Part shown: in pieces, positions 1,825 through 24,818 of the stretch
Layout of the letters: each line of letters opens with the position of its first letter
How positions within the stretch are numbered: position 1 is the stretch's first letter
Origin: Fibrobacterota bacterium
GTDB taxonomy: Bacteria > Fibrobacterota > Fibrobacteria > UBA11236
DNA: 40,249 bases
Assembly: GCA_023249635.1 (NCBI GenBank)
Contig: JAHFCH010000033.1
Coordinates: forward strand, 1-40,249
Direction: 5' to 3'
Program-made: the position numbers and the translations under genes
Notes under the pieces: model-generated
Told to the model about the DNA's origin: nothing
The model's database searches: none
What the model saw: the letters and a program-made list of their open reading frames with translations, nothing else

Positions 1825-2679
1825 ATGGGACGACGCATGGTAAGAATCGGTTTCGCCTTGCTCGCCTTGCTTACCGCCTGCGCCCCGGTCGGTCGTAAGC
1901 CGGAGGATACGGCTGCGGGCATTCCCTTCGACGCCCTCCTCCCCAGCGGACGCAATCTCTTCGCCTTCGATTTCACCCAGGCGCGCTATCGCAAGCTTCC
2001 CCTCAAGGAAAGCGCGTCCGATAGCTCCGGACTTTGCCGCGCGGTCGACAGCCTGCGCGCGGGGTGGCCCGGGAAATCGGGATGGCTGGCCCTGCCCGCC
2101 CCCAGCCGGCCCTTTTCCCCCATGCAAGCCGCGTGGGGTCCCAGCGGGAATTTCTTCCTGCTCGATCGCGCGGGCAAACGCTTAGGGTTGTACGACAGCA
2201 ATGCCCAATTCCTCTCCGGCATCCCCCTGCCCGCGGAAATCCGCGAACGCAACCTGGAAGCCTTTCAGGTTTTCTGGACCCGGGACGGAACCTTTTCCTT
2301 CTTGGACTTGGCCGAAGGCAAAGCCTGGCAGTATACCGAGCTGCGCGCGGCGGGCGGCGGCGATTGGCGCCTGAAGAATTCCGTGCGCTTGCCGGTGGGC
2401 TTGGAGTCGTGCCTATGGGAACCCTTCTTCAGCTCGCCCTGCTGCCTGCGGCCCCAGGGGAATGGGCAATGCTTCGATGCCTACTTCAATCCCATCGGAC
2501 CCTGGCCTTCGGCCGGCGTCGGTGCGGGGATGCGGCCCGTGGCTGCCGCGGTCCCGGGGGAATGGATGTTGTTGCTGGACGGCGGCCCGGCTTGCGCGTC
2601 GCCGGCCGTCTGTCTGCAGCCGGCCAAGGGGCAGCCTTCCACCTGCCCCGGGGAAACGGAAGCTGCGCCGTCTAAGTAA
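1825..2679 (+). CDS. Lipoprotein with probable beta-propeller domain
   Basis: A 284-residue protein with a lipoprotein signal: Arg-rich start, hydrophobic core and the lipobox LTAC, so that Cys19 would be lipidated and anchor it in the outer or inner membrane. Start choice: ATG 1825 (GGAG ten bases upstream) or ATG 1837 (GGGA six bases upstream) both fit; an in-frame ATG at 1786 would put an unusual Cys-rich extension before the signal and is less likely. The mature part has repeated short segments such as WGPSGNFFLLDRAGKRLGLY and FWTRDGTFSFLDLAEGKAW, in the style of NHL or six-bladed beta-propellers; this fold call is by eye. Cys residues in the C-terminal third may form disulfides. It is the first of three plus-strand genes and its end meets the start of the large barrel gene, so the two are probably cotranscribed. 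Confidence 0.7.
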   Translation: MGRRMVRIGFALLALLTACAPVGRKPEDTAAGIPFDALLPSGRNLFAFDFTQARYRKLPLKESASDSSGLCRAVDSLRAGWPGKSGWLALPAPSRPFSPMQAAWGPSGNFFLLDRAGKRLGLYDSNAQFLSGIPLPAEIRERNLEAFQVFWTRDGTFSFLDLAEGKAWQYTELRAAGGGDWRLKNSVRLPVGLESCLWEPFFSSPCCLRPQGNGQCFDAYFNPIGPWPSAGVGAGMRPVAAAVPGEWMLLLDGGPACASPAVCLQPAKGQPSTCPGETEAAPSK

Positions 2680-5600: not shown

Positions 5601-5971
5601 GCCTGACACGCAAGCTGCCGCATGCCTTCCTGGCCGAGGGACGGTCGCAATACCTTCTCATCCACGGGAGTTCGGTGACCGGTGATGTCGATTTGCAGGG
5701 GGTAAAGCCCGCCTTGAAACTGGAGAAGACTTCGTTGTACAACGGCCGGGCCTTCGTCGAATACGGCGTTATCTATTTCTGGGGCCAGGGCGAAGGCGGC
5801 TTCTATTCTACGGGGGATTTTTCCAAAGGGCTTACCCATCGTATGGAAGCCAACGCGAATTTCCAGGTGGGGGCCAACATCTACCTGAACTTCGACTACG
5901 TGGCGCGCTTGGAACCGGACGGAAACCGGCTGGTGCAGAAAATGACCGCCGAAGCGAGAGCGGTGTTCTGA
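2663..5971 (+). CDS. Large outer-membrane beta-barrel protein of uncharacterised FCB-type family
   Basis: About 1100 residues. Residues before 2663 in this frame overlap the lipoprotein gene and look like out-of-frame translation. From a CTG at 2663 the protein would begin with a textbook signal peptide (basic MRRL, hydrophobic core, cleavage at GSAQ). The first conventional codon, GTG at 2699, would leave a signal without basic residues; an ATG at 2462 is in frame but would overlap the upstream gene by 218 bases. The mature N-terminal part has the motif SDQNVPIQPEGNT and then RNGTPLKRGTDYTIDY with a GRLDF strand. I recall these from long unannotated surface proteins of FCB bacteria; SprA-like proteins have a similar style. 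The rest is rich in alternating aromatic and polar strands, and it ends in TAEARAVF, a plausible barrel beta-signal. It overlaps the Omp85 gene by one base (TGATG). The start is uncertain; an outer-membrane barrel is likely. Confidence 0.7.
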   Translation: MRRLSNISVTGAVVSLLALALAAAGPGSAQPQAPSPAEPGWLWSRACMAGAPADSASAAAPRKGPWLSPDSLRPESGLGSPRRLRLLRNGQPLLLDQDYRLPPGDSLVVFAAAVTPGDSVCLERAYTPLLPRPIPGLYRLDAIPVYRSGALDSVWQNGAELSLAAADTGYGRYRLNYSGSKSMAVTVGSGGGLGLDASLFLNLDGQVAEDVFVEGQLSDQNVPIQPEGNTATLKEVDTKYMKVYGSRYAYVLGNYLMEYGVAGEDRFTAKVEGVDGSYRRNGYALRGSWSVSSGQYQSDTLRGVDGKQRGYYLRGRDGRQFITVLAGTERVWRNGTPLKRGTDYTIDYAEGRLDFLLPLVVTGENLFAAEYQYTEQDFPRSLTAGEVRDSSGALTWSLRAITENEDKDRPLSLSPDTALLRRFQGLGDSTYLDTLGRPVAMPHRQSAAAADLGLKLAGYDGHAALILSQFDRNLYSERDDGDNLGYSTRYLGSHTLGRPFDKGGIGSSELTLEHELRSEDFESFKQLIEPRGFQETWNLDARVARRGFMANRARLQEKPFSFLSVAGELGRADADSAVDAGSLRAAEGSISRRGGVSARLGGDKLFLESGSEAKLARSPDRRDNYRQFGHAGMEAGGLMPSVAWTRNEWLTRVPGGALAHSEKQEPEFQIATAPIWDRLTLASGVSVLSQRSDFNGTLPDLQDSVRDWGFTQKASLLGWGPWSTDAFYSFRNHRLWRLDGAGAYANLPEESDFHQAEWNNHLADARKGYGFLSAYRVSQTAEFPLIEDYRELKGRGDYIRTSDSAYHHIETGNGDFVLIGLKRDTTVGSKPYQDLSWTANLELTPARFPFPVTGVLADVELTLDMAFDDQDTSDSPGLLPLFTDDQIQGVRSGRARYSPALHWKAPDGRQGSNFYFDRSYGHAAGVLTYSERLWDQRADYRREAGEDWEWFLEQAYENRSRTGQTAASESDTRNQLYGGRLTRKLPHAFLAEGRSQYLLIHGSSVTGDVDLQGVKPALKLEKTSLYNGRAFVEYGVIYFWGQGEGGFYSTGDFSKGLTHRMEANANFQVGANIYLNFDYVARLEPDGNRLVQKMTAEARAVF

Positions 5972-7539
5972 TGGGTGGCACGCGCCTGATAGGGATGGTT
6001 TTGGCCCTCTGGGTATTCGCCACCGGGGCTACGGCGCAAACCGTCGCTTCCGGCATGGACGCAAAGCCGACCGCGGACTCCCTCGCCTTGCTCATGGCCC
6101 AGGGCCATCTGCGCGCGGCGCGGGATGAGGCCGGACACCTGGTGCCGGGACCGATCTTCAACTTGGGCCGCATCGCGATCCACAGCGGTCCCGGTTTTAC
6201 CGCGGAAAGCATGGGTCTCGCGGCATTCTCCGGGGAGCCGGCCCGCGCGGAGAACCTGGAAGCTATCGGAACCCGGACGCGATCCTGGTTGCTCGATCAC
6301 GGATTCCCGTTCGCGAACGTCTCGCTGGATTTCTTCGTGCGCGGCGATACGCCTGTGGCCGATGTGCTGGTGGCGATCGAGTCGGGATCGGGATACAAGT
6401 TCGGCGGCTACAAATCATCGGGGAGCCGTACCTCGGCGGAAACCCTCGATCGCCTTTCCCTCCTGAAATTCGGCGAAGACTACAGCGAAGCGCGCTTGCG
6501 GTTGGCGGAAGGCAAGCTGGCGCGCACCGGTTATTATGAAACCGTGGTCCCCGCCGGGTTGTTCCGCGATTCCACCCGCAACCTCCTGTATCCCAGCCTG
6601 GTCCTCTCGGATCTCAAGGGCAACCGCTTGAGCGGGATCCTTGGGTATGATTCCGAGAAAAAGGGAGGGGACGGCTTGAACGGGTTCATGGATATCCATC
6701 TCATCAACCTGCGCGGGACCGCCCGGGATCTTGACTTCACCTTCGACAGCAAACAGACCGGCGCAGGCGTGGACAGCAAGGACGCGCGCTTGGCCTATAC
6801 CGAACCGTGGATCCTGTCTTCCCGCGTGGGTGCGCGCCTCAACCTCGCGGCTTCCATCGAGGATTCCGTCTACGACGAATTACGCGCCGATCTCACCTTC
6901 TTCCAGGATCTCGATTTCCATTCCCGTTTCCTCGTGGATCTGGGACGGCAATTCAACCATGACTTCGCCGCGGCCACGCGCTCCGAGGCCGATATCGCCG
7001 GACTCGGTTTCCAATACGATGCCCGCGATCGAGTCCCTGCCACCCTCAACGGCGCGCGCTACTCCCTGCGCGTGAACGGGGTGCATCGGGATCAAGGCGA
7101 CTCGGCCTACTATCTGGTGCAAAGCGTGGACGACTTCGCGCTGTGGGCCAATCTGGGTCGCTGGGTATTGCATACCCTGGTTTCGGCCGGCGGCGATTGG
7201 CCTTTGGACAGCAAGGCCGATCGCGGCGAGCTGTTCGCGTTGGGCGGCGCCAATACCATCCGCGGATTCCGCGAGCGCGAATTCCTCACCGATGCTTACG
7301 CCTACGCCAACCTGGAATTGCAATTCCTGCTGGCACCGGGCAGCCGGGCCTCGCTGTTCGTAGTGCCGGGACTTATCAACCGCCTGGGCGGGGATATCAG
7401 GTGGCGGCGCGTAATCGGCTACGGAGCGGGCCTGGAATCGGGCAGCAAGGATTGGACCTTCGGCATCAGCTACGCCCTGAATCCCGATCGCGCCCCCGCG
7501 GACGGATTCATCCACCTGAGCGTCAGCAACAATTTCTGA
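5971..7539 (+). CDS. Omp85/BamA-TamA family outer-membrane protein
   Basis: A 522-residue protein with a signal peptide (cleavage after about Ala22, ATAQ). Two POTRA-like domains are visible at about 45-125 and 130-195; the second has the typical pattern ending in ARTGYYETV. The C-terminal part (about 205-522) is a 16-strand-type surface-antigen barrel with the diagnostic loop-6 motif GGANTIRGFRE (Arg431-Gly-Phe) and a terminal Phe. BamA has five POTRAs, so this is a shorter Omp85, closer in size to TamA- or TpsB-like members. The family inserts barrels into, or moves proteins across, the outer membrane. Its ATG overlaps the stop of the large barrel gene by one base, which implies translational coupling. 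The context suggests, without proving, that it assembles or works with the upstream barrel protein and lipoprotein. Its stop lies 14 bases from the stop of the convergent M64 gene. Confidence 0.88.
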   Translation: MGGTRLIGMVLALWVFATGATAQTVASGMDAKPTADSLALLMAQGHLRAARDEAGHLVPGPIFNLGRIAIHSGPGFTAESMGLAAFSGEPARAENLEAIGTRTRSWLLDHGFPFANVSLDFFVRGDTPVADVLVAIESGSGYKFGGYKSSGSRTSAETLDRLSLLKFGEDYSEARLRLAEGKLARTGYYETVVPAGLFRDSTRNLLYPSLVLSDLKGNRLSGILGYDSEKKGGDGLNGFMDIHLINLRGTARDLDFTFDSKQTGAGVDSKDARLAYTEPWILSSRVGARLNLAASIEDSVYDELRADLTFFQDLDFHSRFLVDLGRQFNHDFAAATRSEADIAGLGFQYDARDRVPATLNGARYSLRVNGVHRDQGDSAYYLVQSVDDFALWANLGRWVLHTLVSAGGDWPLDSKADRGELFALGGANTIRGFREREFLTDAYAYANLELQFLLAPGSRASLFVVPGLINRLGGDIRWRRVIGYGAGLESGSKDWTFGISYALNPDRAPADGFIHLSVSNNF

Positions 7540-10794: not shown

Positions 10795-11361
10795 ATGGGC
10801 ATGGTAAGCACGAACGAGTTCAGGAAGCGCATGAAAATCATGCTGGACGCCCAACCATGCATGATCGTCGAGAACGAGTTCGTGAAGCCCGGCAAAGGCC
10901 AGGCTTTCAACCGTGTTCGGCTCAAGAACCTCATCACGGGCCGGCAGTTGGAAAAGACCTTCAAGTCGGGCGATACCTTCGAGGAAGCCGACATCACCAA
11001 TACCACCATGCAGTTCCTCTACACCGACGGCATCAACTACACCTTCATGGACACCAAGTCCTACGAGCAAGTGGAGATCGACAAGGAGTCGATGGACGGC
11101 GCCGAGAAATGGCTGCTTGAGAATACCGAGTGCGATATCTCCTTCTGGGGCGATAAGGCCATCTCGGTGACGCCTCCGGTATTCATGGATCTCGTCATCA
11201 CCTACACCGAGCCCGCCGTAAAGGGCGATACCTCGAACAACGTGACCAAGGCCGCTACGGTGCAGACCGGCGCGGAAATCCAGATTCCCCTGTTCATCGG
11301 CACCGGCGACAAGGTCAAGGTCGACACCCGCACCGGCGAGTACGTTGAGCGGGCGAAGTAG
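10795..11361 (+). CDS. efp: Elongation factor P
   Basis: A 188-residue EF-P, which binds the ribosome between P and E sites and helps peptide-bond formation at polyproline stretches. The start at 10795 is set by GGAGG eight bases upstream; an ATG at 10801 is a possible alternative. The three beta-barrel domains are complete. The loop KPGKGQAF places the modified lysine at Lys34, as in E. coli, and the C-terminus DTRTGEYVERAK is typical. Lys34 with neighbouring epmA and epmB predicts beta-lysylation instead of rhamnosylation or the 5-aminopentanol modification. The gene overlaps epmA by 17 bases. EF-P substrates in this window include a PPPP run in the 151-residue protein at 24817-25272 and PPP near the start of the HTH regulator at 31343-32041. 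Confidence 0.96.
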   Translation: MGMVSTNEFRKRMKIMLDAQPCMIVENEFVKPGKGQAFNRVRLKNLITGRQLEKTFKSGDTFEEADITNTTMQFLYTDGINYTFMDTKSYEQVEIDKESMDGAEKWLLENTECDISFWGDKAISVTPPVFMDLVITYTEPAVKGDTSNNVTKAATVQTGAEIQIPLFIGTGDKVKVDTRTGEYVERAK

Positions 11362-12349
11362 CCCCGACCTCACGGCGCTCCGCTATCGGGCGGATGCGCT
11401 GCGCCGACTCCGCGCTTTCTTCCATGAACGCGGAGTGCTGGAGGTGGAAACCCCGGCGCTTTCCCGCGGCATCTCCCTCGATTGCCACATCGACGTTTTC
11501 TCCTCCCGCTTCCACGCCTTAGGTTTCCCGGGAGCGAACTCAGGGTTCCCCGGCTCCGAATCGGAAAAGGGCGACGGCACCTTCTACCTGCAAAGTTCCC
11601 CCGAGCCGCATATGAAGCGCTTGCTTTGCCGCGGTTTCCCGGACATCTATCAGATTTGCAAAGCGTTCCGCAATGGTGAAAGCGGCGCCCGCCACAATCC
11701 GGAATTCAGCATGCTGGAATGGTACCGCAAGGGATTCTCCCTATCCGATCTGATGGATGAAGTTGAACTCGTCTGTCGCCTCTTCCGGCCGAATGCGCCC
11801 AGCCGCCGCCTGACTTATCGCCAGGCCTGGGTTGCGGCCCTTGGCCTTGATCCCATCGCGCTCGATCGCGAAGCTCTGCTTTCCCATCCTTCCCTGTACG
11901 GCAAACTGCCTGACACGGCCGATCTTCCCGCCAAAACGGACTTGCTCGACTTTGTCATGGCCCATATCATCGAACCCGGTTTCGACCCGGAACAGTTGAC
12001 CCTGGTCCATGGTTTCCCTTCGGAACAAGCGGCCCAGGCGCGGATCTTGGCCCAAGACCCAGGGGTGGCCGAGCGCTTTGAAGCCTACGGCGGCGGGGCC
12101 GAGCTCGGCAACGGGTATCTGGAACTGGCCGACCCGGACGAGTACGATCGCAGATTCGACGCCGAGAACGCCAAACGTCTATCCCGGGGCAAGCCGGTAC
12201 TTCCCAAGGACCCGGCTCTATTGGCCGATTTACAGCTTGGACTGCCCGCATGCGCCGGTGTCGCCATGGGTGTGGACCGTCTGGTACAGTGGGGATTGGG
12301 GCTGGACGGCATAGCTCGGACACTCTCCTTTCCTTGGGAGCACTGCTAA
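11345..12349 (+). CDS. epmA: EF-P--(R)-beta-lysine ligase EpmA (GenX/PoxA)
   Basis: A class II lysyl-tRNA-synthetase paralogue, without an anticodon-binding domain, that adenylates (R)-beta-lysine and transfers it to Lys34 of EF-P. It is 334 residues (E. coli EpmA 325). Motif 1 lies around GVLEVETPAL (30-39), motif 2 is FRNGESGARHNPEF (108-121) and motif 3 is GVAMGVDRL (305-313). A Gly/Ser-rich insertion at about 60-78 before the YLQSSPEPHMKRLL segment is slightly longer than in E. coli. The start is a TTG at 11345 inside the 3' end of efp (17-base overlap), giving coupled expression; no better ATG exists before the conserved region. An intrinsic terminator follows at 12528-12553. Confidence 0.94.
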   Translation: MSGRSSPDLTALRYRADALRRLRAFFHERGVLEVETPALSRGISLDCHIDVFSSRFHALGFPGANSGFPGSESEKGDGTFYLQSSPEPHMKRLLCRGFPDIYQICKAFRNGESGARHNPEFSMLEWYRKGFSLSDLMDEVELVCRLFRPNAPSRRLTYRQAWVAALGLDPIALDREALLSHPSLYGKLPDTADLPAKTDLLDFVMAHIIEPGFDPEQLTLVHGFPSEQAAQARILAQDPGVAERFEAYGGGAELGNGYLELADPDEYDRRFDAENAKRLSRGKPVLPKDPALLADLQLGLPACAGVAMGVDRLVQWGLGLDGIARTLSFPWEHC

Positions 12350-12601: not shown

Positions 12602-15600
12602 ATGTCAAACTTTTCCTTCAACCGCAAACCTTCCTTCCTCCGCCCCCGGCGATCGGTTGCGCAAGCTTCCCTCGCCCTGGCCCTGGTATTGGCCCTGGCC
12701 GGTGCCGGGCACGCGCAGGGTCCGAAGACGGCGGAAGAATGGTTCAAGCGAGCCAATGAGATGTACCAGGAAGGAGCCGTGGACGAAGCCATCGGATCCC
12801 TCCAGGAAGCCCTTAAGCTGAAGCCCGATTACGCGGATGCCCAGGCCCTGCTCGGCGCCGCCTACGTCGAATCCGGCGAGTTCGCGAAAGCGGTCGATCC
12901 TTACAAGAAAGCCTCCGAACTCAAACCCAACGAATACTCCATCCTGCTCGGGTATTCCAACGCCTTGGAAGGGGCAGGCCGACAGGATGAAGAACTTCCC
13001 GTCGTCAAGAAGCTGTTCAACCTGAACAAGCAGGACATGGTAACCGGCATCAAGTATCTGACCCTCATTGAGGCGGCCGGCCGCGAGAAGATGGTCAATG
13101 ACTACATCGCCGTCCTCGAGGATTTGCGCAAGTTGCCGAATTTCGATCCTGCCTACACCGCCAAGCTGGCTCGCGCTTACAACAAGACCGGCGATTACGC
13201 CAAAGCCGCAGGCGTATTCCAGGAGTTGGTCAAGTCGAGCCCCGAGAGCGCGGAATACTGGACCGGGCTCGCCAATGCCCAGGCCAAAGTCGATCCCGCC
13301 GCCGCCCGCGAGTCGTACAAGAAGGCCATCCTCTTCACGGACAACGCCGGAGAACGCGCCAAGCTCGAGAAGGCCAGCGCCGCCCTGGGCAAAGGCCCGG
13401 CCGCTGCTCCCGCCGCCCCGGTCGCAGCCGCGACTCCCGCCGCTCCCGCAGCTCCGGTTGTCCCCACCGGTCCCTCGGCAGCTGAAAAAGCCGCCGCCGC
13501 CGCGGCTGCTAAAGCCACTGCCGCCGCCGAAGCCAAAGCGCAAGCGGATGCCAAGGCCTCTGCCGCCGCCGAAGCCAAGGCGCAAGCGGACGCCAAAGCC
13601 GCCGCCGCCGCGGATGCCAAGGCCGTAGCCGCAGCCGAAGCGAAGGCGCAAGCGGATGCCAAAGCCGCCGCCGCCGCGGACGCGAAAACCAAGGCCGATG
13701 CGGATAAGGCCGCCAAGGCCGATGCCGCCGCCCTGGCCGCCGCCGAGAAAAAAGCCGCGGCTGATGCCGCCGCCGCGCAAAAGGCTGCCGACGCGAAATC
13801 CGCCGCGGATGCCAAAGCCGCCGCCATCGCGGAAGCGAAAGCCAAAGCAGATGCGGAAAAGGTTGCCAAGGCCGATGCCGCCGCCCAGGCCGCCGCCGAG
13901 AAGAAGGCCGCGGCCGATGCCGCCGCCGCGCAAAAGGCTGCCGACGCGAAATCCGCCGCGGATGCCAAAGCTGCCGCCATCGCGGAAGCGAAAGCCAAAG
14001 CCGATGCGGATAAGGCCGCCAAGGCCGATGCCGCCGCCCAGGCCGCCGCGGAGAAGAAAGCCGCCGCCGAAGCGCAGGCTAAGTCCGCCGCCGATGCCGC
14101 CGCCGCCAAAAAGGCCGCCGATGCCCAGGCAGCCGCGGAGAAGAAAGCCGCAGCCGATGCCGCCCTCGCGCAGAAGGCCGCCGATGCGAAAGCGGCCGCG
14201 GACGCGCTCGCCGCCAAGAAAGCCGCGGACGCGCAGGCTGCCATCGAAGCCAAGGCCCTCGCCGCCGCCACCGCCAAGGCCCGCCAGGACAGCCTCGCGC
14301 AAACCCAGGCCGAGAAGAAGGCCGCGGCCGAAGCCGCCGCCGCCCAGAAGGCCGCCGAAGCCAAGTCCGCCGCCGAAGCGAAAGCGATTGCGGAAGCCGA
14401 GAAGAAAGCCGCCGTCGCCGCCGAAGCGCAAGCCAAAGCCGAAGCCGCCAAACTGGCCAAGGAAGAAGCCGCCCGGCTAGCCAAGGTCCGCCAGGACAGC
14501 ATCGCCCAGGTAGCCGCAGAAAAGAAGGCCGCCGCTGAGGCCTCCGCAGCCGAGAAAAAGCTGGCTGCCGAAGCCGCCGCCAAGGCCGCGGCCGAAGCCA
14601 AAGCCCAGGCCGATGCGGAACGCAAAGCCGCCGCCATAGCCAAGGCCAAGGCGCATCAGGATAGCCTGGCCAGCGCCATGGCCGACAAGGCCGCCAAGGC
14701 GGAAGCCGCCCGCATCGCCAAGGAAGAGGGCGCGCGCTTGGCCAAGGCCCGTCAGGACAGTATCGCCCAGGTTGCCGCGGAAAAGAAAGCCGCCGCCGCC
14801 GCCGAAGCCACAGCCAAAGCCGAGGCCGCGAAGTTGGCCAAGGAAGAAGCCGCGCGACTTGCCAAAGCCCGCCAGGATAGCCTGGCGCAAGTTACCGTCG
14901 AGCGCAAGGCCGCAGCCGAAGCCGAAGCCAAGGCCAAGGCCGAAGCCGCCAAGCTGGCGAAGGAAGACGCCGCGCGCATGCTGAAGCACCGCCAGGACAG
15001 CCTGGCCCAGGTCGCGGTCGAGAGAAAAGCCGCCGCGGAAGCGGAAGCCAAGGCCAAGGCCGAAGCCCAACGCATCGCGAAGGAAGAAGCCGCCCGTATC
15101 GCCAAGGTCCGCGCCGACAGCATGGCGCAGGCCGCCGCCGAAAAGAAGGCCGCCATGGAGGCGGAAGCCAAGGCCAAGGCGGAAGCCGCCAAGCTCGCCA
15201 AGGAAGACGCCGCGCGCATGTTGAAGCATCGCCAAGACAGCCTGGTACAAGTTGCCGCCGAGCGGAAAGCCGCCGCGGAAGCGGAAGCCAAGGCCAAAGC
15301 CGAGGCTCAGCGACTGGCGAAGGAAGAGGCCGTCCGCGTTGCCAAGGTCCGCGCCGATAGCCTTGCCCAGGTGATGGCCGAGCGCAAAGCCGCCGCCGAA
15401 GCGGATGCCAAGGCGAAGGCTGAAGCCGCCCGCATCGCAAAGGAAGAAGCCGCCCGCATCGCCAAAGTGCGCGCCGACAGCCTGGCCCAAGTGATGGCTG
15501 AGCGCAAAGCCGCCGCCGAAGCGGATGCCAAGGCGAAGGCGGAAGCCGCCCGCATCGCGAAAGAAGAGGCCGCGCGCCTCGCCAAGGCGAAAGCGGACAG

Positions 15601-18600
15601 CATCGCCCAGGTGACGGCGGAACGCAAAGCCGCCGCGGAAGCCGCGCGCGTCGCCAAGATCAAAGCCGATAGCCTGGCCCGGGTGGAAGCCGCCCGCGTG
15701 GCCAAAGCCAAGGCGGATAGCATCGCGCAGGTGATGGCCGAGCGCAAGGCCGCTGCCGAAGCCGCCCGCATCGCGAAAGCCAAGGCCGACAGCACCGCCC
15801 GCGTCGAAGCGGCGCGTGTAGCCAAGGTCCGCGCCGACAGTATCGCCGCCGAGGTTGCCGCCAGGAAGGCCGCCATCGAGGCTGCCCGCGTCGCCAAACT
15901 CAAGGCTGATAGCCTGGCCCGGGTGGAAGCCGCCCGCGTCGCCAAGGAACGGGTCGATAGCCTGGCCCGCGTAGCCGCTGAAAAGAAAGCCGCGGCGGAA
16001 GAAGCCGCGCGCATCGCCCGCGAAGAAGCGACCCGCGTAGCCAAGGCCCGCGCCGACAGCCTGGCCCGCGTGGAAGCGGAACGCAAAGCCAAGGCCGAGG
16101 CCGATCGCCTGGCCAAGGAAGAGGCCGCGCGCCTCGCGAAGGAAGAGGCGGCCCGCGTGGCGAAAGCCAAGGCCGACAGCCTCGCCAAGGTGGAAGAGGA
16201 ACGTAAGCTGGCCGCCGAACAGGAGCGCCAGTTCCAGGCCCAGGTCACCGCCCTGCTCGCCGAACAACCTACCCAGCTCGACACCGCCGCCGTGCTCGGC
16301 AAGATCGCCGATCGCAACGCGCGGGCCAAGGTTGCCGATCCCCGCATGGTCGAAGCCGAAGCGGTCATCCACTTCAAGCAATGGAATTTCCGCGGTGCCG
16401 TGGACAACCTACGTAAGCTCAAGGTGCTCTCGGCCACGGGCAACCGCATGATGGCCCTGTCCTTGTTCGAATTGCAGGACTACGCCTCGGCCCTGAAATA
16501 CTTCCAGAAGATGCCCAACGTGGCCGCCAACCGCGTGGAATGGGGCAAGTACATCAAGACCCTGCTCGAGAACAAACAGCGTCCCGTGGCCGCGGCCCAA
16601 TACGAAGCCTATCTGGCCAAGTATCCCGACGCCGATGACGCGTTGTCCTTCCTCATCGACTACTACCGCGCGCCGATGCAGAAGGACAAGCTGATCCCGA
16701 AACTGGAATTGCAATTGGCGAAGAATCCCAAGGATGCGCCGTTGCTCACCGAGTTGATCACGCTCGTGGATAAGACCAGCCCGAAGGCCATCGAATACCG
16801 GGAGCGCCTGCTCAAGGAGAACCCGGAAGACGCCAAGCAAGCCCTGGCCCTGGCCCAGGCCTATGAAGCCAAGGGTAACCTGGCCCAAGCCCTGCCCATC
16901 TACCAGAAGCTGGCGAAGGATGCCCCCGCCGACAAGGCCTTGAACCTGAAGACCGGCGAGTTGCTGTATGCGGGCAAGCAGGCGGATGCCTCCGTCCCGT
17001 ATTTCGAAGCGGCCCATGCCGCCGATCCCGCGGACAAGAAGCTCACCCTGCGTTTGGCCGCCCTGTACGAGGACTTGAAGAAGACCGATAAGGCAGCCGA
17101 GACCTACTCCGCCGCCATGGCCGCCGATCCCAAGGACAAGGCCGTGCAAGCCAAGCTGTTCCAACTCTACTCCGCCAAGGGGGACAAGGAACAGATCAAG
17201 GCTTTGCTTATGAAGATGGACGATGCCGATGCCACCGCCCATCAGGCCCAATTCCAATTGGCCAAGGGCTTCCTGGCCGATGGCGACAAGGACAAGGCGT
17301 ACGTCTACCTGGCCAAGGCCCTGCGCAATCAGCCCAACAATCAGGAATACATCGGATTGTTGCCGGCCGTAGTGCAAAGCGATGAGCAGGTCGACGCCCA
17401 CTTCGCGTCGCTGGAAAAGGCCGCCTTCTATCCCAACGCCAAGCCTGAGTTGCAGGCGCTGGTCGCCAAGGGCTATGCCAAGCGCAAGAACGTGCTGATG
17501 GCCGCGCGCCTTTACGCCGAAGCCTACGCCAAGAATCCCAAGCTGCTGGATGGCCAACGCGATGCGGTCACCACCACCTACATGGCCAAGAATAACGAGC
17601 TGGCGGGAGCGCTGGCGGAGAAGTACCTGGCTACGGACGATAAGGATCGCGCCATCCGCGAGATTGAAGTCAACGCCTTCATGGCCACCAACAAACCGCC
17701 GGAAAAATTGCGCGAGGCCATCAAGGGCCTGGCCGTCCTGGATGCCGATGGCGCGACGAAATGGTCCATGAAGCTGGCCCAGCTCGACCTGGCGGCCAAG
17801 GACACCGCCGCCGCCGTGGGCCATGCCCGCGAATTCCTCGACAAGAATCCCAAGAACGCCGAAGGGTGGCGATTCCTCGCTCCCCTGGTGGCCCGCAAGC
17901 CCGGCCAGGAAGACACCTATATCGTGGTGCTGGAGAAGCTCTCCGCCCTGGAGCCGGCCAACAAGGGCCGTTATGATCTCGAACTCGGCAACCTCTACCT
18001 GGCCAAAGGCGATTTCGACGGCGCCGAAAAAGCCCTGCTGAGCGCCTCCAAGACCAATCCCGCCAACGCTTCCCTCTGGTTCAAGCTGGGCGAAACCGAA
18101 GTCAAGTTGCGCAAGGATAAGGATGCGGCCGAGAAGTACCAGCGCGCCTACCAGATCGAACGAACCAACGTGCAGTATGCCCGCGCATACGCCATGTCGG
18201 TGGATACCAAGGATGAAATCAAGGTCAACCTGCCCTTGTTCCAATTGCTGGCCAACAACGGGCCCAGCGTCGATGAGCGTAAGAAGCTCGCGCAGGCCTA
18301 CTTCCTGAACAACGACTTCGCCAATGCCGCCAAAGAATTCGATTGGCTGCTCAAGGGCGATCCCAACCTGGCCACCAGCGAGCCCATGGTCGCGGACGCC
18401 TATATGAAGTCGGGCCAGGCTTCCAAGGCCCGCGGCCTATATGAAGCGCGACTCAAGGATGATCCGAACAACCTGGCGATGCTCGAAACCATCGCCAACA
18501 TCTATAAGGCCGAAGCCAATGCCGCCGGCTACGCCGCCACCATCGATAAGATCGTAAGCGTGGATCCCAAGTACAAAGGCTACCAGTTGGCCTTGGCCCA

Positions 18601-21600
18601 GGAAAAGGAAAAGGCCAAGGATTATAAGGGCGCCCTGGAACAGTACACCGCCTGGGTCGGCCGCAACGGCAACGACATCGCTTCGGTGAAGGCCCAGCAT
18701 CGGCTGGCCATGCAGGTAGGGGATACCACCGCGCTGATGGACGCCTTGGTGCGCCTCAACCGCGAAAAGGTGGTCGACAACGGCTACAAGTTCCAGCTCG
18801 CCGAATTGGACTATAAGCGCAGCGGCAACGTGGCCGGCGTAGAGCGCATCGTCAAGACCCATCCCGAGTGGAAATCCGGCAAGGCCATCCTGGTCAAGGA
18901 ATACCTGCGCACGCATAACATGGCCAAGCTTATCCCCCTGCAGGGCTTCCTGCTGGCCGAGTCCAAGACCAACAAGGATCTGCTGGAACCCTTGGCGGAC
19001 CTGTATGCCATCCAGAAGAAGACCCTGATGGCCAATTCCGCCTACCATGACTGGCTGGCGGCCGATCACAAGGATAAGGATACCTACGCGAAGGTGGTCA
19101 AGTACTCCGAAGCCAACAAATCGCCTTACCTCTCCGACATCTACCGTATCGGCGCGGAATCCTTCCCGGAAGATATGGACATCAAGCGCAATTACGCGGC
19201 GACCCTGGGCAAGACCCCCAAGGCCCTGGCCATCTACCAGGAAATCCTTGAGAAGGAAACCGACGTCAAGGTGGTGGCAAAGGCCCTGGACATCGCCCTG
19301 GCCCTCAACCAGACCCAGGCCGCATCCGCCTTGCTGGATAAGTGGACCAACATCGAGCCGAAGGAACCCAAGGTCTGGGAACAGGCCTTGGCCGTGCATA
19401 CCCAGATCGGCAACAAGCCCCGCATGATCGAGGATCTCGAGCAGCTCGGGCGCTTCTATCCCACCAAGAAGGAATATCCGCTCCAGCTCGCGCGCCTCTA
19501 TGAGGACGGCAAGCAACCGGACAAGGCCGCGGATATGTACCAGAAGGCGCTGGCGCTTGATCCTAAGAACAAGGCCGTGCAATTGAAGCTCATCGCCCTC
19601 CTCACCGCGCAGAACCGCGGGCCGGAGTTGCGCGAATTGTTGCTCGCCATCGACAAGAACGACCCCACCGCCCATGAGGCCCAGTTCATGCTGGCCAAGT
19701 CCTTCCTGGCCGAGAACGATCGCGACCGCGCCTACGTATACGCCTCTAAGGCCGTGCGCAACCAGCCGACCAACCAGGAATACCTCTCCCTGCTGCCGCA
19801 GACCGTGGTCAGCGACGAGCAGGTGATGGCCAACTTCGCCGCCCTGGAGAAGTTCGCCCTGCAGCCCGGCGCCAAACCCGAGCTCCAGGCCCTGGTCGCC
19901 CGCGGTTACGCCAAGAAGAAGAACTGGCTGCTTGCCGGTCGCCTCTTCTCCGATGCCTACGCCAAGTCGCCCAAGCTGCTCGATGGCAACCGCGACGCGG
20001 TCATCGCCATGAGCGAGGCCAAGAATTGGCCCCTGGCCGGAAAACTCGCGGACACCTATCTGACCACCAACGACAAGGACCTCCAGGTCCAGCAAATCCG
20101 CCTGACGGCCTACTCGGCCACCAGCCAGCCCCCGGAGAAGATGCGCGACGCCATCAAGGGCGTCATCGCGGTGGATCCGGACGCCAAGAAGTACTACATG
20201 CGTCTGGCCCAATTGGATCTGGCGGTGAAGGATAGCTCCATGGCCATCATCCACGCCCGCGAATGGCTCGACAAGAATCCCAAGGACGCCAACGGCTGGC
20301 GCTTCCTGTTGCCCCTGGTCGCCAAGAAATCCGGACAAGAGGATATCTACATCCAGGTGCTGGAGAGGCTGACGCAGTTGGAGCCGGCCACCCGCGCCCG
20401 CTATGATCTCGAATTGGGCAACCTGTACTTCGACAAGGCCGACTACGAAGGCGCGGAAAAAGCGCTTTCCAACGCGATCAAGACCAGCCCCGGGAACGCC
20501 TCGCTATGGTTCAAGTTGGGCGAAACCCTCACCAAGCTCCGCAAGGACAAGGAAGCCGAGGACAAGTACTCGCGGGCCTATCACTTGGAGCCTTCCAATC
20601 TCACCTACGCCCGCGCTTACGTGCGCAGCGTGAACACCAAGGATGAGGTCAAGGCCAACCTGGCCTTGTTCAAGACCCTGGCCCTCAACGGCCCGAGCGT
20701 GGACGAACGCAAGAAACTGGGCCAGGCCTATTACCTGAACGGCGACTTCACCAACGCCGCCAAGGAATTCGATTGGCAATTGCAGGGTGATCCCACCCTC
20801 GGGACCACCGACGCCATGTATGCGGACGCCTACATGAAGACCGGCCAGACCAAGAAGGCCCAGGGCCTGTATGAGTCGCGGCTGCAGACCGACCCCAACA
20901 ACCTGAACGTGCTCGAGACCCTGGCCGGCATCTACAAGGCCTCGGGGGATCAGAAGGGCTATGTCGCCACGGTCGAGAAGATCGTGAACGTGGATCCCAA
21001 GTACAAAGGCTACCAGCTCATCCTCGCGGTGGAAAAGGAAAAGGCCAAGGACTTCAAAGGCGCCTTGCAGGAATACTCCGAGTGGGTGACCCGCAACGTA
21101 GGCGACGAAGTGGCCCTCAAGTCCATGCACCGCTTGGCCGATCAACAGAAGGATACGGCGGCCCTGATGGACGCCTTGGTCCGGTTGACCCGCACCAAGG
21201 GCGCGGACCCGGTCTACGCCTTCCAGATGGCCGAGGTCGACTACGTGCGCTCCGGCAACATCGCCGGCATCGAGCGCCTGGTCAAGACCCACCCGACCTA
21301 TTCCCGCGGCAAGGTCATCCTCATCAAGTCCTACTATAAGAAGGGCGCCTTCGCCAAGATGGCCCCGTTCCTGCCGTTCCTGAGCGCGCAGGCCAAGTCG
21401 GACAAGTCTTTGGCGGAACCCTTGGGCGATCTCTACGCCTCCATGAAGAAGACCGGCCCCGCCAACGAGGCCTATTTCGACGCGGTGCGTTTCGACAAGA
21501 AGGATCGCGACCTCTTTGATAAGGCATATCGCTACGCCAAGGAACACGATTCGCCCTATCGGGCCGCTTTCCTCAAGCAAGGCTACGAAGCCTTCCCGGA

Positions 21601-24600
21601 TGACGCCATCGTGAAGTTCGACTACGCCTTGACCCTGGGCAAGACCCAGAAGGCGCTCGACCTGTACAACGAAATCCTGCTCAAGGACCACAACAACCTG
21701 CCGGCCGTGCGCAATGCCGCCGAAGTGAGCGTGGCCTTGGGCAAGCAGACCGATGCGGCCGACCACCTCACCCACTGGGTCACCCTGGAACCCGAGCAGG
21801 CCCGGCCCTGGACCCTGCTGGTCGATCTCTATACCCTGCAAAAGAACGACGCCAAGCTGGCCGATGCGCTCGAGCATCTGTCGGGTTTGTCGCCGAAGAA
21901 CGGCGACCTGGCCTTCCGCGCCGCCATGGCGCATAAGAAGCTCGGCAACAAGGAGAAATCCTTGGAGCTGCTCACCAAGGCCGTGGCCCTCAACGGGACC
22001 AATCCCTCGTTCCAGAAGGAGTTCGGCTTGGCCCTGTTCGCGTCCGGCCAGGTCGCGCGCGCCAAGGCCCCGTTGCTCATCGCGGATCGTTCCATGAAGA
22101 ATGACGAGGCCATCAACGCCGCCCTGTACAACATCTACGTGGCCGAGAAGAACAAGGGCCTGGCGCGCGAGCGCCTGCGCTTCCTGTTCGCGTTGCGTCC
22201 CACCAACAAGGATTACGCCTACGGCCTGGCCCGCCTCGAATCGGATCTCAAGAATCCCTCCGAAGCCATCAAGATCCTGGAGCGCCCCAATCTCAAGGAC
22301 GATCTGAACGCAGAGATGTCCTTCCTGCTGCTGGACGGCTATTTCAAGCTGGGACAGCGCGACCGCGCGGCGGCCCTGGGCCCCGTGCTCATCCGCAAGT
22401 TCCCGGACGAAGCCAAGCAATCCTTGCCGCTGGCCATCCTCTTCTACGAGACCAAGCAGCGCGCCAAGGCCAAGGAAATCCTGGAGACCTACGTCCGCAA
22501 CAATCCGGGCGAAGAAGCCTTCTACTACCTGGGCAAGATCTATTTCGACGAGAAGAACTGGGAAAGCTGCATCGCCAACCTCGATCGCGCCGATCTCAAC
22601 CGGCCGGACGTGCTGCGCATGCTGGGTGAATCCTACATCGCCAGCAAGCAGCCCGAGCGCGCCATCAAGGTGTACGAGGACTACTACGCCAAGACCAAGG
22701 ATCTCAAAGTGCTGGTGGAGCTCTACGGCTTGTACAAGAAAACCAGCGATGAACCCGGCACGCGGGCCATCCTGGAACGGCTGATCGCGGCCGAACCCCA
22801 GAACTACGATTACCGCGTGGAGTTGGCGGAGCTGTACCGCGCCAAGGGCGATAACAAGAAAGCCGAAGCCCAGTACGAGATGATTCTCAAGAAGATGCCG
22901 AACCATCCCGCCTCCAACATGAACTACGGCATGATTCTCGCCGGCCGTAAGGAATGGGCGAAGGCCATCAAGATGCTCGAGACCGGTTTGGCCAAGTACC
23001 CGGACAGCGCCACCGCCTGGCGTTACCTGGGCGACGCCTACCGCGCCGAGAAGCGTTACGCTTCGGCCCTGCAATCCTATAAGAAGGCGTTCAAGCTGCA
23101 AAGCAACAGCCTGCCTATCGCGGTGGCCAAGATGCAGATGACCAAGGAGGTCGGCGCTTCCGAGGAGTTGCCTTCGGCCTACTCCGACGTGGTACGCCTG
23201 GATTCCTCCAACGTGGAGGCCGCGGCGGCCCTGGCCGATATCCGCTTCAACGATCGTAAGTACGCGGACGCGGCCGCGCTCTACGCCAAGGTGACCGCGG
23301 CCAAGGGAGGCGACCGCAACCTGTGGGCCAACTACGGCTTCGCCTTGATCGAGACCAAGAATATCGACGGGGCCAAGCGCGCCCTGCAGCGCGCCGTGGA
23401 CCTGGGCGAAAAGGGGCCGCGCGTGATGACCAGCCTGGCCCGCATCTATAAGGAAGAGGGCAACAGCGAAAAAGCCGAAGCCATCCTTTCCGAGATGGTC
23501 AAGAAGGATCCCCGCAACCATCTGGCCTGGTACTGGCTGGGGCAGATCGCCCTGGAACGGAACCAGCCCGGCGTGGCCGAGGATGATTTCAAGAAGGCCC
23601 AATTGCTGCAGCCGACCAACGGCGATTACGTGGAGGCCCTGGCCCGGATGCAATACAACAAGGACGAGTTCGCGACCGCGGCCCGCCTGCTGGAGCCTGT
23701 CCGCGCCAACCTTTCCACTTCGGGCCACCTCATCTACGGCGATTGCCTGATGAAGCAGGGCAAGAACGAGGCCGCCCTGGCCGAACTCAACGCCGTATTC
23801 GCCAAGGATCCTTCCGCTCCCGTGTTGGCCAAGCTGGCGGAGTTGCAGATCAACAAGGGCAACAACCGCGAGGCCATCCGTCTCATCGAGGGGTCCGATT
23901 TCAACCAGGACACCACGGTGCAATTCTCCCTGGCCAAGGCGCGTATCGCCACCCGCGAAACCGATAAGGCCCGCGAGGTATTGGAGCGCCTGATCCGTAT
24001 CAACAAGTACAATCCGGGCTATTACCATTACCGTGCCCTCAGCTATTACTACGACCACAACTACTCCAAGGCCAAGAAGGATTTCGATCAGACCCTGAAC
24101 ATCAATCCGGATTACATGGACGCCGTCTACCATATCGGGCTTTGCCTGCTGAAGGATGGGCGCCCGGCCGACGCGAAGAATTACTTCAAGGAATTGTCGC
24201 AGCATGCCAACGCCAACTGGCAGGCCAAGGGCTTCCTGGGCCTGGCGATGGCCTTTGAGTCGGAGAAGAAGTACGAGGCCGCCGAAAACTTCCTGCAGAA
24301 GTCCATCACCGCGGACGAGGACCCCGAGGCCCTCAGCCTATTGGCCAAGGTCCTGCTACGGATGCGCAAGCCCAGCGAAGCGGAGAAGAACGCCCGTCGC
24401 GCCCTGGAACTGCAACCCGGCAACTCCATGGCGGTCGCCTCCATGGGTGATGTGCTGTTGGCCCAGAACCGCAAGGCCGAGGCCGTCTCCTTGGTCAAGA
24501 AGGCGCTGGAAGGGAATCCCAACTCTTGCGAACTGCTGATTGGTTCCGCCAAGGTTAACTTCGCCGCTGGCAATTACGAAACCAGCAAGTCGAACAGCAC

Positions 24601-24757
24601 CTACGCCATCTCCATCTGCCCCGAAGAGGCCTCGCCGTATTACTACGCCGGCGTGGTGGCGGACAAGAAGTACCAGAAGAAGGAAGCCAAGGATTTCTTC
24701 CGCGCCTTCAAGAAGCATGGCGGCGACGAGGGTATGCTGCCGGCGGATTACCGCTAG
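12602..24757 (+). CDS. Giant exported TPR and alpha-helical-repeat protein (4051 residues)
   Basis: The start is fixed by GGAGA before the ATG and a signal peptide (basic FLRPRRS, hydrophobic core, cleavage after Ala38, GHAQ). Order of parts: TPRs at about 43-255; an Ala/Pro linker at 262-293; an Ala/Lys/Glu/Asp-rich helix at about 294-1210, first in 51-residue and then in 40-residue repeats with the recurring motif RxDSLAQV; then TPRs from about 1215 to the end, roughly 80 of them. Residues of about 1481-2290 and 2291-3100 are diverged copies of one 810-residue block. There is no enzymatic domain, no membrane segment after the signal and very few Cys. A continuous 900-residue helix could span over 100 nm, far more than a periplasm, so a folded-back or surface-exposed arrangement is likely. 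TPR arrays usually bind proteins, so a scaffold or adhesion role is plausible but unproven. A strong terminator follows, so it is a one-gene unit. Confidence 0.93.
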   Translation: MSNFSFNRKPSFLRPRRSVAQASLALALVLALAGAGHAQGPKTAEEWFKRANEMYQEGAVDEAIGSLQEALKLKPDYADAQALLGAAYVESGEFAKAVDPYKKASELKPNEYSILLGYSNALEGAGRQDEELPVVKKLFNLNKQDMVTGIKYLTLIEAAGREKMVNDYIAVLEDLRKLPNFDPAYTAKLARAYNKTGDYAKAAGVFQELVKSSPESAEYWTGLANAQAKVDPAAARESYKKAILFTDNAGERAKLEKASAALGKGPAAAPAAPVAAATPAAPAAPVVPTGPSAAEKAAAAAAAKATAAAEAKAQADAKASAAAEAKAQADAKAAAAADAKAVAAAEAKAQADAKAAAAADAKTKADADKAAKADAAALAAAEKKAAADAAAAQKAADAKSAADAKAAAIAEAKAKADAEKVAKADAAAQAAAEKKAAADAAAAQKAADAKSAADAKAAAIAEAKAKADADKAAKADAAAQAAAEKKAAAEAQAKSAADAAAAKKAADAQAAAEKKAAADAALAQKAADAKAAADALAAKKAADAQAAIEAKALAAATAKARQDSLAQTQAEKKAAAEAAAAQKAAEAKSAAEAKAIAEAEKKAAVAAEAQAKAEAAKLAKEEAARLAKVRQDSIAQVAAEKKAAAEASAAEKKLAAEAAAKAAAEAKAQADAERKAAAIAKAKAHQDSLASAMADKAAKAEAARIAKEEGARLAKARQDSIAQVAAEKKAAAAAEATAKAEAAKLAKEEAARLAKARQDSLAQVTVERKAAAEAEAKAKAEAAKLAKEDAARMLKHRQDSLAQVAVERKAAAEAEAKAKAEAQRIAKEEAARIAKVRADSMAQAAAEKKAAMEAEAKAKAEAAKLAKEDAARMLKHRQDSLVQVAAERKAAAEAEAKAKAEAQRLAKEEAVRVAKVRADSLAQVMAERKAAAEADAKAKAEAARIAKEEAARIAKVRADSLAQVMAERKAAAEADAKAKAEAARIAKEEAARLAKAKADSIAQVTAERKAAAEAARVAKIKADSLARVEAARVAKAKADSIAQVMAERKAAAEAARIAKAKADSTARVEAARVAKVRADSIAAEVAARKAAIEAARVAKLKADSLARVEAARVAKERVDSLARVAAEKKAAAEEAARIAREEATRVAKARADSLARVEAERKAKAEADRLAKEEAARLAKEEAARVAKAKADSLAKVEEERKLAAEQERQFQAQVTALLAEQPTQLDTAAVLGKIADRNARAKVADPRMVEAEAVIHFKQWNFRGAVDNLRKLKVLSATGNRMMALSLFELQDYASALKYFQKMPNVAANRVEWGKYIKTLLENKQRPVAAAQYEAYLAKYPDADDALSFLIDYYRAPMQKDKLIPKLELQLAKNPKDAPLLTELITLVDKTSPKAIEYRERLLKENPEDAKQALALAQAYEAKGNLAQALPIYQKLAKDAPADKALNLKTGELLYAGKQADASVPYFEAAHAADPADKKLTLRLAALYEDLKKTDKAAETYSAAMAADPKDKAVQAKLFQLYSAKGDKEQIKALLMKMDDADATAHQAQFQLAKGFLADGDKDKAYVYLAKALRNQPNNQEYIGLLPAVVQSDEQVDAHFASLEKAAFYPNAKPELQALVAKGYAKRKNVLMAARLYAEAYAKNPKLLDGQRDAVTTTYMAKNNELAGALAEKYLATDDKDRAIREIEVNAFMATNKPPEKLREAIKGLAVLDADGATKWSMKLAQLDLAAKDTAAAVGHAREFLDKNPKNAEGWRFLAPLVARKPGQEDTYIVVLEKLSALEPANKGRYDLELGNLYLAKGDFDGAEKALLSASKTNPANASLWFKLGETEVKLRKDKDAAEKYQRAYQIERTNVQYARAYAMSVDTKDEIKVNLPLFQLLANNGPSVDERKKLAQAYFLNNDFANAAKEFDWLLKGDPNLATSEPMVADAYMKSGQASKARGLYEARLKDDPNNLAMLETIANIYKAEANAAGYAATIDKIVSVDPKYKGYQLALAQEKEKAKDYKGALEQYTAWVGRNGNDIASVKAQHRLAMQVGDTTALMDALVRLNREKVVDNGYKFQLAELDYKRSGNVAGVERIVKTHPEWKSGKAILVKEYLRTHNMAKLIPLQGFLLAESKTNKDLLEPLADLYAIQKKTLMANSAYHDWLAADHKDKDTYAKVVKYSEANKSPYLSDIYRIGAESFPEDMDIKRNYAATLGKTPKALAIYQEILEKETDVKVVAKALDIALALNQTQAASALLDKWTNIEPKEPKVWEQALAVHTQIGNKPRMIEDLEQLGRFYPTKKEYPLQLARLYEDGKQPDKAADMYQKALALDPKNKAVQLKLIALLTAQNRGPELRELLLAIDKNDPTAHEAQFMLAKSFLAENDRDRAYVYASKAVRNQPTNQEYLSLLPQTVVSDEQVMANFAALEKFALQPGAKPELQALVARGYAKKKNWLLAGRLFSDAYAKSPKLLDGNRDAVIAMSEAKNWPLAGKLADTYLTTNDKDLQVQQIRLTAYSATSQPPEKMRDAIKGVIAVDPDAKKYYMRLAQLDLAVKDSSMAIIHAREWLDKNPKDANGWRFLLPLVAKKSGQEDIYIQVLERLTQLEPATRARYDLELGNLYFDKADYEGAEKALSNAIKTSPGNASLWFKLGETLTKLRKDKEAEDKYSRAYHLEPSNLTYARAYVRSVNTKDEVKANLALFKTLALNGPSVDERKKLGQAYYLNGDFTNAAKEFDWQLQGDPTLGTTDAMYADAYMKTGQTKKAQGLYESRLQTDPNNLNVLETLAGIYKASGDQKGYVATVEKIVNVDPKYKGYQLILAVEKEKAKDFKGALQEYSEWVTRNVGDEVALKSMHRLADQQKDTAALMDALVRLTRTKGADPVYAFQMAEVDYVRSGNIAGIERLVKTHPTYSRGKVILIKSYYKKGAFAKMAPFLPFLSAQAKSDKSLAEPLGDLYASMKKTGPANEAYFDAVRFDKKDRDLFDKAYRYAKEHDSPYRAAFLKQGYEAFPDDAIVKFDYALTLGKTQKALDLYNEILLKDHNNLPAVRNAAEVSVALGKQTDAADHLTHWVTLEPEQARPWTLLVDLYTLQKNDAKLADALEHLSGLSPKNGDLAFRAAMAHKKLGNKEKSLELLTKAVALNGTNPSFQKEFGLALFASGQVARAKAPLLIADRSMKNDEAINAALYNIYVAEKNKGLARERLRFLFALRPTNKDYAYGLARLESDLKNPSEAIKILERPNLKDDLNAEMSFLLLDGYFKLGQRDRAAALGPVLIRKFPDEAKQSLPLAILFYETKQRAKAKEILETYVRNNPGEEAFYYLGKIYFDEKNWESCIANLDRADLNRPDVLRMLGESYIASKQPERAIKVYEDYYAKTKDLKVLVELYGLYKKTSDEPGTRAILERLIAAEPQNYDYRVELAELYRAKGDNKKAEAQYEMILKKMPNHPASNMNYGMILAGRKEWAKAIKMLETGLAKYPDSATAWRYLGDAYRAEKRYASALQSYKKAFKLQSNSLPIAVAKMQMTKEVGASEELPSAYSDVVRLDSSNVEAAAALADIRFNDRKYADAAALYAKVTAAKGGDRNLWANYGFALIETKNIDGAKRALQRAVDLGEKGPRVMTSLARIYKEEGNSEKAEAILSEMVKKDPRNHLAWYWLGQIALERNQPGVAEDDFKKAQLLQPTNGDYVEALARMQYNKDEFATAARLLEPVRANLSTSGHLIYGDCLMKQGKNEAALAELNAVFAKDPSAPVLAKLAELQINKGNNREAIRLIEGSDFNQDTTVQFSLAKARIATRETDKAREVLERLIRINKYNPGYYHYRALSYYYDHNYSKAKKDFDQTLNINPDYMDAVYHIGLCLLKDGRPADAKNYFKELSQHANANWQAKGFLGLAMAFESEKKYEAAENFLQKSITADEDPEALSLLAKVLLRMRKPSEAEKNARRALELQPGNSMAVASMGDVLLAQNRKAEAVSLVKKALEGNPNSCELLIGSAKVNFAAGNYETSKSNSTYAISICPEEASPYYYAGVVADKKYQKKEAKDFFRAFKKHGGDEGMLPADYR
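13690..14070 (+). repeat. 153-bp direct repeats inside the TPR gene
   Basis: A 153-bp unit recurs in register: GCGCAAAAGGCTGCCGACGC begins at 13775 and again at 13928, with near-identical flanks on both sides, and a partial third unit follows to about 14070. Each encodes 51 residues of Ala/Lys/Asp-rich helix. The high nucleotide identity points to recent duplication by slippage or unequal recombination. Confidence 0.75.
14740..15960 (+). repeat. 120-bp minisatellite inside the TPR gene
   Basis: A GACAG or GATAG box recurs every 120 bases, ending at 14760, 14880, 15000, 15120, 15240, 15360, 15480, 15600, 15720, 15840 and 15960. Each unit encodes 40 residues built on DSLAQVxAERKAAAEAEAKA then AKEEAARIAK. 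From about 15600 the 40-residue unit becomes a 24 plus 16 pair, still keeping the 120-base register. Frame and charge pattern are conserved throughout. Confidence 0.85.
17041..21900 (+). repeat. Tandem 2.43-kb internal duplication in the TPR gene
   Basis: Two consecutive blocks of about 2430 bases align along their whole length. Anchors: GTGGATCCCAAGTACAAAGG at 18560 and 20990 (offset 2430); the RYDLELGNLY segment at 17969 and 20399 (offset 2430); the YVY-KA-RNQP-NQEY segment at 17300 and 19733 (offset 2433, one codon indel). Protein identity by eye is roughly 55-65 percent, so the event is old but the repeat has stayed in register. A more diverged third start may follow after 21870. Confidence 0.85.
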
Positions 24758-24787: not shown

Positions 24788-24818
24788 GAGCGGCCCCCCA
24801 GGGCCGCTCTTTTTTTTT
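24788..24818 (+). terminator. Strong intrinsic terminator of the TPR gene
   Basis: GAGCGGCCC (24788-24796) and GGGCCGCTC (24801-24809) form a perfect 9-bp stem with a four-base loop, followed directly by nine T (24810-24818). It starts 30 bases after the TPR stop codon. The T-run overlaps the stop codon of the convergent gene at 24817. Confidence 0.95.

Follow-up and report, generated by a model that had tools for sequence, protein, structure and literature searches.

A 4051-residue exported TPR protein with a predicted single-alpha-helix spacer and its family of large, probable envelope proteins in Fibrobacterota

The window analyzed here (the whole stretch of 40,249 nucleotides, contig C242 of a 6.75-Mb Fibrobacterota genome in 341 contigs) carries a giant gene encoding a TPR protein with a predicted single-alpha-helix (SAH) spacer, one of a family of large, probable envelope proteins that is confined to these bacteria. 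We give roughly even odds (probability ~0.5) to the reading that the protein is an abundant exported scaffold or tether of the cell envelope, periplasmic or associated with the outer membrane. Its parts and immediate surroundings are as follows.

10795 to 12349, plus strand: EF-P and EpmA-like genes, conserved upstream neighbors of the orthologs (Pfam; synteny)
12602 to 24757, plus strand: whole gene, 4051 aa, predicted 441 kDa, pI ~9.2 (single open reading frame, codon-phase GC, purifying selection, computed mass and pI)
12602 to 12715, plus strand: Sec signal peptide, residues 1 to 38 (read from sequence)
12731 to 13396, plus strand: N-terminal head of six TPRs and a cap helix, residues 44 to 265 (AF2)
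13397 to 13474, plus strand: Ala/Pro linker, residues 266 to 291 (sequence)
13475 to 16213, plus strand: charged Ala-rich helix with a 40-residue repeat, residues 292 to 1204 (charge pairing, periodicity)
16214 to 24754, plus strand: TPR solenoid of ~85 repeats, residues 1205 to 4051 (Pfam; AF2 of the last 1197 residues; ortholog lengths)
17027 to 19402, plus strand: internal duplicated block, first copy, residues 1476 to 2267 (58% identical to the second copy over 793 columns)
19460 to 21835, plus strand: internal duplicated block, second copy, residues 2287 to 3078
23405 to 24754, plus strand: C-terminal 450-residue module, common to paralog classes B to E and ending GGDEGMLPADYR (sequence comparison)
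24527 to 24619, plus strand: Cys3976-Cys4006 pair, probable disulfide (both cysteines present in all 29 family members)
24788 to 24809, plus strand: intrinsic terminator (9-pair stem, then nine T)

The reading frame runs from the ATG at 12602 to the stop at 24757 (4051 codons) without any N, and TTGGAGATACC lies directly 5' of the ATG. Third-position GC is 0.73 to 0.91 in all 600-nt blocks, including the repetitive part; since a single GC phase holds throughout, the gene contains no hidden frameshift. Differences from the ortholog in genome G002 were 0.144, 0.103, and 0.361 at the three codon positions, three other relatives gave similar values, and the differing codons are mostly synonymous. 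The giant open reading frame is therefore a real, translated gene under purifying selection. The original prediction, made before this analysis, had described one gene of 4051 residues without an enzymatic domain. Its coordinates and length proved exact, codon-phase GC is unbroken, and Pfam returned TPR-type families only, with models scoring up to 232 bits. The order of parts that it proposed (signal, TPRs, Ala/Pro linker, helix, TPRs) was borne out by sequence, Pfam, and AF2; the six N-terminal TPRs stood, while a helix of ~920 residues became 913 and a solenoid of ~80 TPRs became ~85.

Export, which had also been proposed, is indicated by the signal peptide, with signal peptidase I likely cutting after GHA, and by hydrophobic export signals at the starts of the orthologs and paralogs. 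There is no lipobox cysteine at the start of the giant protein, where the first Cys is residue 3323. In the AF2 model, the N-terminal head consists of precisely six TPRs and a cap helix (13 helices; pLDDT, 94.7; pTM, 0.82), and the Ala/Pro linker that follows is longer in some orthologs. Six TPRs are also what a pilotin of the PilW/PilF/Tgl kind would have, but the Tgl model scored 48.9 of 225 bits, no lipobox is present, and no pilotin appeared among the top 50 fold matches, so this identity was rejected.

The solenoid comprises 2847 residues of continuous TPR. In the AF2 model of the last 1197 residues, 72 successive helices (~36 repeats) had a mean pLDDT of 83.1 with a pTM of 0.35, so that the repeats can be trusted locally but the overall curve cannot; the total of about 85 repeats is extrapolated from this portion. 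Alignment of 30 repeats gave the 34-residue A20/A27/P32 pattern, with A20 in 23 of them, as in other TPR proteins built from 34-residue helix pairs. By rough analogy with the OGT superhelix, a solenoid of this size would measure some tens of nanometers. Concave TPR positions showed no significant excess of conservation over convex positions (P = 0.17), and concave-face conservation was accordingly rejected as proof of ligand binding. The platform grew through duplication of a block. Both copies were found in every class A ortholog tested and in paralog class B, which makes the duplication old; the duplication tree covers the genus only, and the copies in G008 and class B rest on BLAST.

The nearest solved folds for the last 1197 residues are IFT-A TTC21B, Ski3/TTC37, Ctr9, and APC/C subunits, all continuous TPR superhelices. 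These eukaryotic scaffolds are intracellular and 12 to 17% identical to the giant protein, and the top-ranked chains reach TM values of no more than 0.28, the APC/C subunits 0.54 (by target). The likeness is one of fold class only, with no kinship shown, and there was no full-length match to any solved protein. Neither of the findings that were to overturn the original prediction, a frameshift in the gene or such a match, was therefore seen.

Between the two TPR regions, the 913-residue helix contains 128 charged i/i+4 pairs of opposite sign and none of the same sign, against 58.9 opposite and 60.7 ± 6.5 alike in the shuffled sequence. Hydrophobic residues make up 10.6% and follow a 4.0-residue period, reflecting an 8- and 40-residue repeat; a 3.5- or 3.67-residue (heptad or hendecad) period of the hydrophobics was looked for and was absent. 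This combination is an SAH signature, and the helix looks like a predicted SAH rather than a coiled coil, a choice that the original prediction had left to be modeled. The helices of G002, G003, G005, and G008 have the same excess of opposite pairs (z, 7.6 to 18). SAHs are known as spacers or springs between domains (PMC4183817, PMC5812594). The SAHs of INCENP and the CAF-1 KER region share with the giant helix opposite charges at i/i+4, few hydrophobic residues, and a place between domains as a spacer or spring (PMC4183817, PMC4571873, PMC10335832), but they are eukaryotic and much shorter, whereas the giant helix is exported and Ala-rich.

If continuous, the helix would be 137 nm long (913 × 0.15 nm), in agreement with the earlier estimate of more than 100 nm. 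The accompanying argument, that such a helix cannot lie straight in a periplasm, is true but not restrictive, as an SAH-type helix would bend. A surface or periplasm-spanning scaffold had been proposed. Export is supported and the all-repeat architecture is scaffold-like, but the spanning part is weakened because SAH chemistry bends and because ortholog helices of 186 to 1023 residues accompany the same solenoid, which fits no fixed distance. For the suggested roles in adhesion, gliding, or cell-shape control, the analysis turned up no support: the protein has neither a sorting nor an adhesin domain, and motor genes are absent from its neighborhood.

A search for homologues with the same order of parts recovered the 2865-residue C-terminal part at 72 to 85% identity in all five other genomes of the genus (in G004 split into two neighboring stretches) and at 47 to 49% identity in two of four sister-genus genomes. 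The order of parts and the synteny with EF-P and EpmA-like genes are kept wherever the contig reaches. The family is absent from G006, a sister-genus genome that is 98% complete, and is therefore not indispensable in the taxonomic family. Solenoid lengths in seven genomes were 2841, 2842, 2847, 2848, 2850, 2852, and 2873 residues, while complete helices measured 186, 231, 568, 913 (this genome and G002), and 1023 residues. From these lengths, the helix is best read as a length-tolerant spacer beside a solenoid of constant size, and a spacer that drifts in length next to a platform of fixed size speaks against a molecular ruler. The helix DNA holds tandem repeats of 120 to 153 bp (up to 153 bp at 92% match), which makes its exact length in a metagenome assembly less certain. 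The G001 contig stops inside the helix and the G002 contig near the helix start, and the G004 frame is broken within the repetitive helix region, by either an assembly error or a real indel. The repeats, the contig ends, and the broken frame count in favor of a fused or repeat-expanded frame produced by assembly, but we regard such an artifact as extremely improbable given long intact genes of 3361, 3732, and 4172 aa from independent assemblies, the constant solenoid length, and purifying selection.

Several further observations concern the locus and its relatives. Window positions 2546 to 7539 encode a protein of 1141 aa that matches SprA weakly (E = 3e-4; 18 bits of 200) and, immediately after it, an Omp85/TamA-like protein; in G003 and G004 this pair likewise lies upstream of the cluster. 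Contig C146 of this genome (4277 bp) falls wholly within a second giant-like gene, 67% identical to the giant gene, which represents a second paralog or else contaminating DNA of a related species. Named records with 81 to 89% identical C termini are "Fibrobacteres/Fibrobacteria bacterium" MAGs, with the exception of one 3119-bp contig filed under Verrucomicrobiales (JAQGOV010000704.1); it carries the C-terminal module at 87% identity and is probably a misbinned Fibrobacterota contig. No related loci were found in viral contigs.

The family was defined by the last 450 residues of the giant protein, which contain two invariant cysteines and a GGD...P end. The giant gene constitutes class A. Class B paralogs are ~2700 aa of TPR without the helix; class C paralogs (~1200 to 1700 aa) repeat the TPR-Pro-helix-TPR plan in small; classes D and E have a short N-terminal domain followed by TPR, and a CarboxypepD_reg-like domain passes the cut-off in one E protein but scores below it in one E and one D. 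A distant short class of ~470 aa, present in all six genomes of the genus, retains both cysteines and the GGD...P end, and a tandem pair of family members occurs in a same-order genome. In the tree, classes B to E are each strongly supported, and class A forms one side of a weakly supported branch. Within the phylum, the module was found in 9 of 168 genomes (E ≤ 1e-30), and strong matches to the last 110 residues among 392 genomes were confined to the same family and order. Outside that group, weaker matches (E = 1e-8 to 1e-11) resemble ordinary TPR proteins and were discounted; the three examined lacked the combination of cysteine pair and end motif. Two other Fibrobacterota families of large TPR proteins (>1650 aa; L102, 382 to 5415, minus strand; L103, 7439 to 12397, minus strand) have a GG-containing tail without the cysteine pair.

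The last 450 residues look like a common docking module, because four further paralog classes carry them behind different N termini. The invariance of Cys3976 and Cys4006 makes a disulfide between them probable, and such a pair suits an oxidizing compartment. Against the scaffold reading, the conserved neighbors of the giant gene are housekeeping genes. Those of the paralogs encode a glycosyltransferase, a lytic transglycosylase, a lactonase, a U32 peptidase, a kinase-like protein, and GyrA, among which no common pathway was found.

With eight genes for EF-Tu and ribosomal proteins as the reference, the CAI of the giant gene is 0.71. This is the highest value, matched by one ORF close to the exosortase, among 73 long ORFs sampled from twelve stretches of the genome, a small set that includes the giant gene itself. 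Taking codon bias as a proxy for expression, this ribosomal-protein-like usage suggests an abundant product, and such adaptation is notable for a protein of 441 kDa. On contig C82, the exosortase gene (PF09721) adjoins a 641-aa TPR ORF, and the ORFs there, like the giant gene, have high codon adaptation.

The main rival to an envelope scaffold is an extracellular surface fiber or adhesin that leaves the cell by an unspecified route, its helix holding the six-TPR head off the surface or the reverse. Extreme length and export would suit such a fiber, as would a helix that drifts in length like stalk regions and the CarboxypepD_reg/prealbumin-like domain, of a kind often found in surface proteins, that D and E paralogs carry in places. 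We nevertheless consider it unlikely: a T9SS tail, an autotransporter barrel, a PEP-CTERM, and a lipobox are missing from both ends, even though T9SS-tail-like and exosortase genes are present in the genome, and no sorting or adhesin domain was found in the giant protein. To our knowledge, TPR solenoids are uncommon as adhesive domains. A T9SS cargo was rejected specifically, as the protein has no Por_Secre_tail and is not among the genome's matches to that model.

A polysaccharide-associated TPR protein of the PrsT/BcsC/PgaA kind, organizing exopolysaccharide export, seems to us quite improbable. The giant protein resembles PrsT (TIGR02917) in being an exported multi-TPR protein whose total of 466 bits exceeds the cut-off; the genome contains an exosortase, and a glycosyltransferase neighbors a class B gene. 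However, the 466 bits are a sum of stretches, the best of which reaches 105 bits against a cut-off of 312, and the exosortase is adjoined by another TPR gene. Lacking a collinear match over the cut-off, a lipobox, and a place beside the exosortase, the giant protein was rejected as PrsT; the other NCBIfam names over cut-off (MamA, PilW, and LcrH) were likewise judged repeat-count artifacts, a judgment tested for PrsT. A BcsC or PgaA exporter was rejected because AF2 shows helices up to the C terminus with no strands or beta-barrel, and PgaA scored 57.6 of 366.7 bits.

A third alternative is a TolA-like tether transmitting force or energy, in which the helix would couple an inner-membrane motor to an outer-membrane target. 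TolA domain II and the giant helix are both Ala/Lys/Glu-rich, alpha-helical, exported, and tolerant of length change, and the genome has nine clear MotA/ExbB genes. But TolA runs from an N-terminal transmembrane motor-binding helix directly into the rod, whereas the giant protein has a signal-peptide-like start followed by six TPRs, with TPRs at both helix ends; there is no SHLS-type context, no motor gene lies beside the giant gene, and domain II spans 110 to 335 residues in a proteobacterial survey (PMC12204202), against 913. A TolA/TonB C-terminal domain was not found either (Pfam TPR-type families only; all-helical to the C terminus). TolA identity was rejected for want of the anchor-to-rod arrangement and this domain, and we hold the broader tether idea to be very unlikely. 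Contigs C16, C245, and C306 of this genome carry three clusters with two MotA/ExbB genes each and a TPR protein nearby.

The closest functional analogy for an envelope scaffold is with NlpI and LbcA, exported TPR lipoproteins that act as adaptors by recruiting peptidoglycan hydrolases or proteases (PMC11211486, PMC11021448). One of the two, LbcA (PA4667), also appears in the bacterial matches of the giant protein's C-terminal profile. Like them, the giant protein is an exported TPR solenoid, and by analogy it may be an adaptor without catalysis; they are small lipoproteins, whereas it has ~85 TPRs, an SAH boom, and, with no lipobox, no lipid anchor of their type. For the combination of TPRs with an SAH spacer at this size, we found no precedent in the literature searched or in solved structures, nor did the literature search yield any report on such proteins in Fibrobacterota.

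As a scaffold, the protein would, after Sec export, present two protein-binding TPR heads at the ends of a long, bendable boom made of a single helix. The ~85-TPR solenoid would be a fixed-size platform able to hold several envelope proteins, and its last 450 residues, probably closed by the disulfide, would serve for docking in paralogs with different N-terminal parts. Because this docking module is common to them, the paralogs probably converge on a single site or partner in the envelope, and the six-TPR head on its helix could reach for or hold a second partner within tens of nanometers. More tentatively, and with considerable doubt, these Fibrobacterota may possess a lineage-specific envelope framework, in which several large TPR proteins per cell share one docking module and one of them has an SAH boom of up to ~150 nm that drifts in length between species, together forming an abundant organizing layer. 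If correct, a diderm bacterium would organize its envelope with an abundant ~85-TPR scaffold and an SAH several times longer than the surveyed TolA rods, and the C-terminal module would mark a set of uncharacterized large exported Fibrobacterota proteins for recognition and joint testing.
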